Below the pieces are notes generated by a model that saw nothing but the letters and a program-made list of their open reading frames with translations, was not told the origin of the DNA and made no database searches. Below, one piece after another: positions 19,032-19,964 of a stretch of 64,000 nt of DNA. Source of the stretch: Actinomycetota bacterium (lineage in GTDB: Bacteria; Actinomycetota; Acidimicrobiia; IMCC26256; JAENVU01). The first letter of the stretch is position 1. The number at the start of each line of letters is the position of its first letter. A program made the translations under genes and the position numbers. Location of the stretch: assembly GCA_016870395.1 (NCBI GenBank), contig VGBT01000003.1, positions 1-64,000 of the forward strand, written 5' to 3'.

Positions 19032-19476
19032 GGTCTGGGTGGTGGCGTTCCTCGTCGTCGGCGTGGTGCTGGCGATCGCGGCGGCCTTCGTGTTCCGCGA
19101 GGCGGCGCGCATGCGCGAGGAGCCGCCCCTCGCCGTCTTCGATCCCGACGACGCGTACCGGTGGGTCGTGGAGCACCTCGACGCCCTGGTCGCGGCCACG
19201 CTGACCCCCGACGACGTGCGCCGGATCCTCGACGTCGAGCTCGAGTTCTTCCGGCGCCGTGGCGTGTCGCGCAACGGCTCGGGCAACGAGCCCGACACGC
19301 CGGTGGTCTTCGACGTGGCGGAGGTCACCGGCTACATCGGGACCCGCTGTGCCGAGACGGGCGAGGCCTACCTCCCCGAGCAGGTGGAGGCGGTGGTCGA
19401 CTGCCAGCTCTCCTACCTGCGCTTTATCGGTGCACTCGGTCGTCCCGGTGACGATCCGGGTGAGTCGCCCGCCTGA
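19030..19476 (+). CDS. Membrane-anchored hypothetical protein
   Basis: A 148-residue product with one N-terminal membrane helix (VWVVAFLVVGVVLAIAAAFVF) followed by a charged soluble domain containing DPDDAYRWVVEHLDALVAATLTPDD. The topology suggests a cytoplasmic C-terminal domain tethered to the membrane. No enzyme motif is visible; it resembles short uncharacterised actinobacterial proteins. The ATG at 19030 overlaps the stop of a four-codon upstream frame, which could couple its translation. Confidence 0.75.
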   Translation: MVWVVAFLVVGVVLAIAAAFVFREAARMREEPPLAVFDPDDAYRWVVEHLDALVAATLTPDDVRRILDVELEFFRRRGVSRNGSGNEPDTPVVFDVAEVTGYIGTRCAETGEAYLPEQVEAVVDCQLSYLRFIGALGRPGDDPGESPA

Positions 19477-19531
19477 GAGCTGCGCGGCGTGCTACGAATT
19501 TCGGTACCAGGGAAAGGAGGTGGTCCAACAC

Positions 19532-19573
19532 ATGCATGATCAACATGGGACCCTGGAGGTGCGCGGCCGCTAG
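19532..19573 (+). CDS. 13-residue small ORF behind an extended Shine-Dalgarno
   Basis: Encodes MHDQHGTLEVRGR. It is preceded at 19512-19527 by GAAAGGAGGTGGTCCA, which pairs with nearly the whole 3' tail of 16S rRNA (one G where the exact complement has A), far longer than an ordinary ribosome site. Spacing from GGAGG to the ATG is 11 bases, slightly long. An overlapping ATG at 19536 opens a different frame that runs on into the 63-residue gene at 19773. A strong hairpin follows at 19691-19722. This looks like a translated leader or a microprotein; I do not recognise a described family with certainty. Confidence 0.5.
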   Translation: MHDQHGTLEVRGR

Positions 19574-19690
19574 GTCGGTTCGCTCCATCGGACCCCCGGC
19601 GGAATCTCACCGCCGCACCGCCGTCGACTGGTCGGGAGCTGGTCCCCCCCGAGCACTCCTTCCGACGGTACTTCTCTACCTGCTCGAACC

Positions 19691-19722
19691 CGAGGGGAGC
19701 GTGCACCTGCACGCTCCCCTCG
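19691..19722 (+). terminator. Perfect 15-bp hairpin downstream of the 13-codon ORF
   Basis: CGAGGGGAGCGTGCA pairs exactly with TGCACGCTCCCCTCG across two bases. It is followed by GC-rich sequence and not a T-run, so it would be a stem-only actinobacterial terminator or an RNA structural element ending a short transcript that begins near 19500. The next promoter (TAGCCT, 19760) lies downstream, which fits a transcript boundary here. Confidence 0.6.
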
Positions 19723-19759
19723 GCGCGCCTCGGAGCATGTCGAACCCGAGCGCGCGATC

Positions 19760-19765
19760 TAGCCT
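19760..19765 (+). promoter_or_regulatory. Leaderless -10 element for the 63-residue protein
   Basis: TAGCCT, seven bases before the ATG at 19773. Confidence 0.5.
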
Positions 19766-19772
19766 CTGGCGA

Positions 19773-19964
19773 ATGAGCCGTCCCACGAAGTTCGAGGAGT
19801 TCCGCTACGTCGGCGACAAGCGGAGCCAGCGCTACTACGACCTCGACGACCCGGATCTCGCCCCCGACGTGGTCGACGAGCTGATGAGGTCCGAGCAGTT
19901 CACGTGCTTCGCTCCGGACACGCCGGCCGAGGCCCGCAACCGCGGCTACCGGGCATCTTGCTGA
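19773..19964 (+). CDS. Small conserved-looking actinobacterial protein, 63 residues
   Basis: Encodes MSRPTKFEEFRYVGDKRSQR onward, with SEQFTCFAPDTPAEARNRGY near the end. Short proteins with the RYVGDKR and FAPDTxAEARNRGY motifs recur in actinobacteria in my memory of such genomes, without assigned function. It is charged, cytosolic and lacks obvious metal sites. A TAGCCT -10 seven bases before the ATG indicates a leaderless transcript. Its final codons lie inside the first copy of a 22-bp dispersed repeat, so the C-terminal Ala-Ser-Cys may be supplied by that repeat. Confidence 0.75.
   Translation: MSRPTKFEEFRYVGDKRSQRYYDLDDPDLAPDVVDELMRSEQFTCFAPDTPAEARNRGYRASC

Follow-up and report, generated by a model that had tools for sequence, protein, structure and literature searches.

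A conserved, terminating mini-ORF in an actinobacterial structured RNA distantly related to Ms_IGR-5: evidence for predicted pairing of its codons with downstream RNA

The ribosome-binding site and its complementarity to 16S rRNA

The window analyzed here, a stretch of 64,000 nt from contig VGBT01000003.1 of an actinobacterial genome of about 3 Mb, contains an element in which an exceptionally long Shine-Dalgarno (SD) sequence precedes a very short open reading frame (ORF). In the window sequence, GAAAGGAGGTGGTCCA occupies positions 19512-19527 and is followed by an ATG at 19532, while the TAG stop of MHDQHGTLEVRGR is located at 19571-19573. The two features on which the analysis centers are:

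19512..19528, + strand: extended SD, a 17-nt complement of the 16S rRNA 3' tail, judged against the genome's own 16S tail (locus L002)
19532..19573, + strand: 13-codon ORF MHDQHGTLEVRGR with its TAG stop; stop at the same codon in 191/191 and in-frame start in 188/191 homologues

The genome's own 16S rRNA gene lies in L002 on the minus strand (RF00177 match, 1561.8 bits) and ends in ...ggctggatcacctcctttct. Positions 19512-19528 pair with this tail over 17 contiguous nucleotides including one G-U. The complementarity is directly visible, since GAAAGGAGGTGRTCC occurs just once more in the 3-Mb genome, namely as the reverse complement of the genome's own 16S 3' end. Among 4235 ATG, GTG and TTG codons in the window, more than 12 nt of 16S complementarity is found only upstream of the ATG at 19532 and the overlapping start codon at 19536, the next best start codon being preceded by a run of 12 nt. 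The near-complete complementarity to the 16S tail described in an earlier note on this DNA, made from the sequence, is therefore a genuine outlier, and the 13-codon ORF and the perfect 15-bp hairpin lie behind the ribosome site as that note had placed them.

To characterize the group, 191 distinct homologous elements were collected by the SD and the pattern GAx..GAGGT(G/A) only. Contiguous complementarity amounts to 16-20 nt in 189/191 of them and spans the complete 16S tail up to the edge of h45. Pairing with the whole mature tail is what would be expected of a guide or chaperone acting in maturation or quality control of the 16S rRNA 3' end. The conserved start, stop and frame indicate initiation instead, to our knowledge no bacterial RNA serves as such a guide or chaperone, and we regard this explanation as extremely improbable.

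Distribution and relationship to Ms_IGR-5

A DNA search with positions 19480-19730 retrieved relatives from 37 of 61 related genomes of many families, with 73-87% identity over about 19487-19660. Features common to the aligned relatives are an extended -10-like box, ACCAG at the start, the SD and the ORF, two blocks (GGCGGAATCC and GGTCCC) and a terminator-like hairpin. A covariance model, R1, was derived from 25 sequences, i.e., the window element and 24 relatives. It matches the window at 19506-19671 with 159 bits, its alignment contains 13 pairs changed on both sides with 60 such cells, a level reached by 0/500 shuffles, and the window RNA folds better than its shuffles (z = -2.86). Identity among relatives, fold and covarying pairs together confirm that the observation of the earlier note is real. 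Searches with R1 detected the element in 109/296 genomes of the class and 50/296 of the phylum, nearly always in one copy. Two copies were seen in one genome of the order (G023:C3 and G023:C1). A DNA pattern matched at least 119 stretches, the named matches stemming from Acidimicrobiia, Solirubrobacterales, Thermoleophilaceae, a Nitriliruptoraceae bacterium and Svornostia abyssi (Thermoleophilia); a few bins labelled otherwise were also among the pattern matches listed. The outcome that the note had named as refuting, a lack of conservation, did not arise: the ribosome site, the frame and the stop are conserved, and the peptide sequence is retained only in part.

At the gathering score, a search of the whole window against Rfam returned no family. 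The family RF02471 (Ms_IGR-5), an actinobacterial small RNA (sRNA) attributed to Li et al. (2013) in PMC6789036, gave no match at E <= 10 in 19400-19800 and none in the window's own genome, and the segment searched permissively yielded chance matches only; the window's element lies below the RF02471 gathering score of 45 bits. When distant loci were searched permissively against Rfam, RF02471 was matched on the same strand from end to end, with L084 and L067 exceeding the cut-off, and across the phylum the family has matches in 67/296 genomes, 25 of them above the cut-off and with a maximum of 176 bits. Relatives from the R1 set that pass RF02471 come from genomes G495 (45.5 bits), G370 (49.9 bits) and G121 (45.9 bits). 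The element on G495:C18 scores 85.7 bits with R1 and matches RF02471 over positions 1-184 of 184 at the same place, and the same holds true for G121 and G370. These intermediates, matching both models at the same place, establish the homology of the window element to RF02471: by transitive homology it is a divergent relative of Ms_IGR-5, positioned outside the family by Rfam's own cut-off. We consider the identity of the element and its homology to the Ms_IGR-5 group very probable on these sequence comparisons, and the statement of the note that no RNA family could be named gives way to a distant membership via intermediates. The layout of RF02471, with an extended SD near the 5' end, a mini-ORF with a fixed stop and a terminal hairpin with a GUCC loop, is also found here.

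Transcription of Ms_IGR-5 has been reported for S. lividans (PMC8079986), S. avermitilis (PMC8780764) and M. smegmatis (PMC10454040), and ribosome footprints on MS_IGR-5 have been recorded by Ribo-seq in M. abscessus and M. smegmatis (PMC4974804). In the literature searched, we found neither a description of an ORF in Ms_IGR-5 nor a function of this RNA; the rules for frame, start and stop, the pseudoknot embedded in the ORF and the extension to deep-branching classes appear to be new as far as that search reaches.

A reading frame with a fixed stop

The fifth codon after the GAG is a stop in 191/191 elements (TAG 139, TGA 41, TAA 11), and none of the 191 contains an earlier in-frame stop. Of these elements, 112 derive from the pattern scan that is silent on the stop (TAG 70, TGA 32, TAA 10), and 19 RF02471 loci likewise terminate at the same codon. 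A short in-frame ORF behind the same SD is evident in the Rfam consensus and in the strong RF02471 matches, e.g., LIASWTCEVTAR or MCDSRTREVAAG. In-frame starts are present in 188/191 homologues. Canonical start codons in the expected interval number 118 in frame vs. 3 and 56 in the other two frames, most of the 56 being overlapping ATG or GTG codons just within the ORF. CTG, ATC, ATT or ATA is the sole start in the interval in 70/191 elements. Such near-cognate codons are very rare as bacterial start codons; here, 69/70 occur at one identical spacing, with ATG positioned 2-3 nt further. Within the window's own order the start is ATG in 32/33 cases and the product reads MHD(Q/K/R/D)xGT(L/S)EVRGR. 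The mini-ORF comprises about 12-18 codons across the group and 13 in the window; two relatives, L014 and L023, carry one extra whole codon. The conservation of start, frame and stop together marks a short ORF that is predicted to be translated.

Pairing of ORF codons with downstream RNA

Part of the ORF is complementary to two downstream regions of the same RNA, giving rise to two long-range helices, a and b, the strands of which are:

19547..19552, + strand: helix a, 5' strand GGGACC (Gly-Thr codons), partner 19641-19646
19641..19646, + strand: helix a, 3' strand GGTCCC, which lies in hairpin P4 (apical loop) and forms a pseudoknot with the ORF; from covariation and the swap test
19558..19566, + strand: helix b, 5' strand GGTGCGCGG (end of the Glu codon to the Gly codon), partner 19610-19619
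19610..19619, + strand: helix b, 3' strand CCGCCGCACC; from covariation and the swap test

In helix a, GGGAC(C) of the ORF pairs with (G)GUCCC in the P4 loop; 85% of the cells are paired and 69 are changed on both sides, vs. 36-51% and 8-28 in slid controls, in which the pairing partners were moved by 1-3 columns. In helix b, GGUGnnnGG of the ORF is matched by a downstream CCnnnCACC, with 95% of cells paired and 188 changed on both sides (slid controls 31-50% and 9-25). Swapping in the ORF segment of another RNA weakens the best pairing (p = 1e-9 for helix b, 9e-21 for helix a), while control segments gave null or weak results in this test (p = 0.46 and 0.03). A third long-range pairing, P5, connects GCTGGA with UCCAGC ahead of the terminator (p = 1.5e-8); it joins the pre-terminator region to the P3 strand, not to the terminator arm, and is indistinct in the window's own sequence. 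All of these p-values are indications only, as the sequences are related.

What the comparison shows is a structured RNA of stand-alone layout in which a mini-ORF, conserved together with its stop, pairs through its codons with downstream RNA. This bears on the main rival, a ribosome decoy, in which the RNA would titrate free 30S subunits via its 16- to 20-nt duplex with the 16S tail, the short ORF letting the ribosome leave and weak starts together with the pseudoknotted ORF delaying clearance. Complementarity far beyond the need of initiation in 189/191 elements, near-cognate starts in 70/191 and the published Ribo-seq footprints (PMC4974804) all agree with such a function, which, however, requires neither a stop at a fixed codon in all homologues nor covarying downstream pairs and fits poorly with ATG in 32/33 elements of the window's own order. 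We hold the decoy to be unlikely.

The same pairings bear on whether the peptide is selected. A dual-function RNA or an mRNA for a functional peptide of 12 to 18 residues ending in [G/R]TxEVxGR would account for the retention of frame, start and stop and for the nearly invariant Thr, Glu and Val. These invariant residues, on the other hand, coincide with helices a and b, and GAG-GTG is in addition part of the search pattern. In the N-terminal codons, first and second positions are as free to change as third positions (0-34% synonymous among single differences), and at the codon after Val, where the amino acid changes together with its RNA partner, 10% of differences are synonymous. The Arg codon, with 72%, exhibits the sole excess of synonymous change; apart from it, no synonymous excess pointing to selection on peptide residues outside the RNA pairings was found in the 191-homologue set. 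As the invariant codons are the paired codons and the N-terminal changes are mostly non-synonymous, frame and termination appear to be kept and the amino-acid sequence hardly at all. A functional peptide is accordingly judged quite unlikely. A selected microprotein, examined via synonymous change, was left unsupported, and the abundant microprotein suggested in the note is disfavored by unpaired codons that lack a synonymous excess.

Further structural elements

The remaining structure of the RNA comprises:

19506..19689, + strand: structured RNA body with probable 5' end at A19506; from the ACC block and covariance model R1
19565..19576, + strand: P2 hairpin GGCC-GCTA-GGTC, in which the stop codon is at the loop, an alternative to helix b; 90% of cells paired in 25 order sequences
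19590..19597, + strand: P1, anti-SD-like strand GGACCCCC, which can pair with the SD at 19519-19526; mismatched in the window
19621..19668, + strand: P4 hairpin, outer stem 19621-19626/19663-19668, inner stem 19632-19636/19648-19652; from covariation

Both stems of P4 covary: in the outer stem 5/5 pairs are changed on both sides, and in the inner stem, 98% paired, 3/4 pairs are. In P1, 92% of cells are paired in the 25 order sequences, with one-sided changes only. The strand following the ORF in the order, CUGGACCGCCU, is similar to the 16S 3' tail and able to form a duplex with the SD; it is degraded in the window's own family. In the order, P1, i.e., the SD with GGACCGCC, had seemed to be the key sequestering helix. 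This reading was rejected, and we regard P1 as lineage-specific, since L007 and L013 lack it, the window carries it with mismatches and it is not a general feature of other classes.

Promoter, terminator and genomic context

Two features flank the RNA body:

19490..19499, + strand: extended -10-like element TGCTACGAAT, the RNA's own predicted promoter, judged by its position
19690..19723, + strand: 15-bp perfect hairpin in the window sequence, resembling an intrinsic terminator without U tract

A cgTGnTAcaA block is conserved upstream of ACCAG in the order, and TAnnnT occurs at -20/-19 from the SD in 85/190 homologues and elsewhere at most once per position. A sigma-70 scan called no promoter at the element. 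The presumed 5' end across 190 homologues is A (96%), C (98%), C (83%). The terminal hairpin has arms at 19690-19704 and 19709-19723 and a four-base loop, and as it is not followed by a T tract, a scan for U-tract terminators misses it. The best 36-nt hairpin downstream of 185 homologues has a median of -28.8 kcal/mol, with 92% below -18, vs. a median of -17.7 kcal/mol and 46% below -18 in control DNA. In many relatives from the order, e.g., L007, L013 and L015-L017, the U-less hairpin is followed by a (T)CGCGTC motif.

With regard to neighboring genes, the names of which, like some class labels, rest on a reading of translations, loci of the window's order have an acyl-CoA dehydrogenase upstream and a small gene with a GDKR motif downstream. 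In the window this gene (19774-19964, + strand) encodes a small conserved protein, MSRPTKFEEFRYVGDKRSQRYYDLDD...EARNRGYRASC, which follows the RNA in 52 loci; Pfam and NCBIfam searches with this protein returned no match. Mycobacteria-like loci feature a pabC-like gene upstream, Nitriliruptoria-type loci a transporter gene downstream. In Thermoleophilia-type loci (L067, L068, L072, L073, L076, L079, L090), a gyrA-like gene immediately precedes the element, a different context that is internally stable.

The order's arrangement could be that of a cis-acting leader or attenuator of the gene at 19774-19964, with the 15-bp hairpin as a conditional terminator, given that the same gene follows on the same strand in 25/31 order loci at about 260-375 nt from the SD. 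Over all classes, however, 124/176 loci lack this gene and have other or opposite-strand genes instead, and mycobacterial and Streptomyces relatives have been reported as sRNA units (PMC8079986, PMC8780764, PMC10454040). Contexts differ by class, and a conserved regulated gene immediately downstream, the hallmark of a cis-leader, is not seen; we consider the leader improbable. A leader for a conserved downstream gene was dropped as a candidate once the neighbors proved to change between classes, and the regulatory leader put forward in the note is, at least in its gene-specific form, disfavored on the same grounds. Since neighbors vary, the element is best described as a putative stand-alone RNA gene, with a predicted transcript of about 220 nt that has its own promoter and its own terminator hairpin. 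The short self-contained transcript with unusually strong ribosome binding postulated in the note gains support from the conserved position of the -10-like element, the conserved 5' end and end hairpin, and the ribosome footprints on a mycobacterial relative (PMC4974804).

Proposed mode of action

The pairing of ORF codons with the rest of the RNA suggests that ribosomes may reshape it. An SD covering the whole single-stranded 16S tail would attract a 30S subunit close to the 5' end, and the mini-ORF would be translated and terminated at a fixed place. Helix a, reaching into the P4 loop, and helix b would be opened by an initiating, elongating or terminating ribosome. As a ribosome at the start would cover or reach helix a and one at the stop would cover helix b, translation could open the fold and produce two states, an untranslated pseudoknotted and a ribosome-opened one, from which the activity or the lifetime of the RNA would be read. 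On balance, we lean slightly toward an autonomous structured RNA that takes its conformation from ribosomes loading on and passing through the mini-ORF; for this proposal we infer the effector to be the RNA and not the peptide. Several points weigh against it. Ribosome-dependent switching is a step that we infer solely from the overlap of ORF and helices. The authors of the Ribo-seq study state that such RNAs 'lack clear evidence of translation' (PMC4974804). Moreover, no match was obtained, even with lax filters, in two genomes of the same genus, 80-86% complete, or in several small genomes from the order (G001, G002, G016, G021, G027 and others in total), implying that the element is dispensable or has been lost there.

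A more specific version, possible but doubtful, is that of an Actinomycetota-wide riboregulator that would be turned on or off by translation of the mini-ORF, for which the peptide is irrelevant and which would sense initiation capacity, i.e., the supply of 30S subunits and initiation factor 3 (IF3), via its over-long SD and near-cognate starts (CTG, AUU, AUC, AUA) at one fixed spacing in many lineages.

Significance and comparison with known systems

Comparison over multiple classes suggests that a mini-ORF behind an extreme SD forms the core of an sRNA family that Rfam lists as non-coding. Near-cognate starts, very rare in bacteria, occur in many lineages of the group, which is extended to Acidimicrobiia, Thermoleophilia and Nitriliruptoria. 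The ribosome footprints published for MS_IGR-5 gain a concrete explanation, and the function of an old orphan sRNA becomes testable in M. smegmatis or Streptomyces.

With Ms_IGR-5 the element shares the 5' GGAAGGAGGUGGUCC, a mini-ORF ending in ..EV..R-stop, the GCGAAUUCC motif and a last hairpin with a GUCC loop. It differs in start codon, ORF length and neighbors, and the Rfam record describes an sRNA gene of 184 positions, with helices a and b missing from its structure line.

SgrS/SgrT and RNAIII are dual-function sRNAs with a small ORF that are both regulatory and translated. The RNA described here resembles them as a regulatory RNA with predicted translation; unlike in those cases, its ORF lies inside the conserved fold, and amino acids outside the paired codons are seemingly unselected. 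The STAR repeats of S. aureus (PMC13009471) are comparable in that they are short, have an extended SD and bind ribosomes wherever they are expressed. In contrast to the dispersed STAR repeats, we are dealing here with a structured RNA that is usually single-copy and has its own predicted promoter.

Finally, translation-responsive leader peptides and attenuators, such as mycobacterial upstream ORFs (uORFs) and S. aureus rbfL (PMC13009471), likewise combine a short ORF behind a strong SD, codons engaged in alternative pairing and a subsequent terminator-like hairpin. In contrast to them, the element has no conserved regulated gene downstream and no run of codons for a sensed amino acid, and its transcript apparently ends at the hairpin. 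By analogy, it may work like a translation-responsive attenuator from which the defining feature of an attenuator, the conserved downstream gene, has been subtracted.
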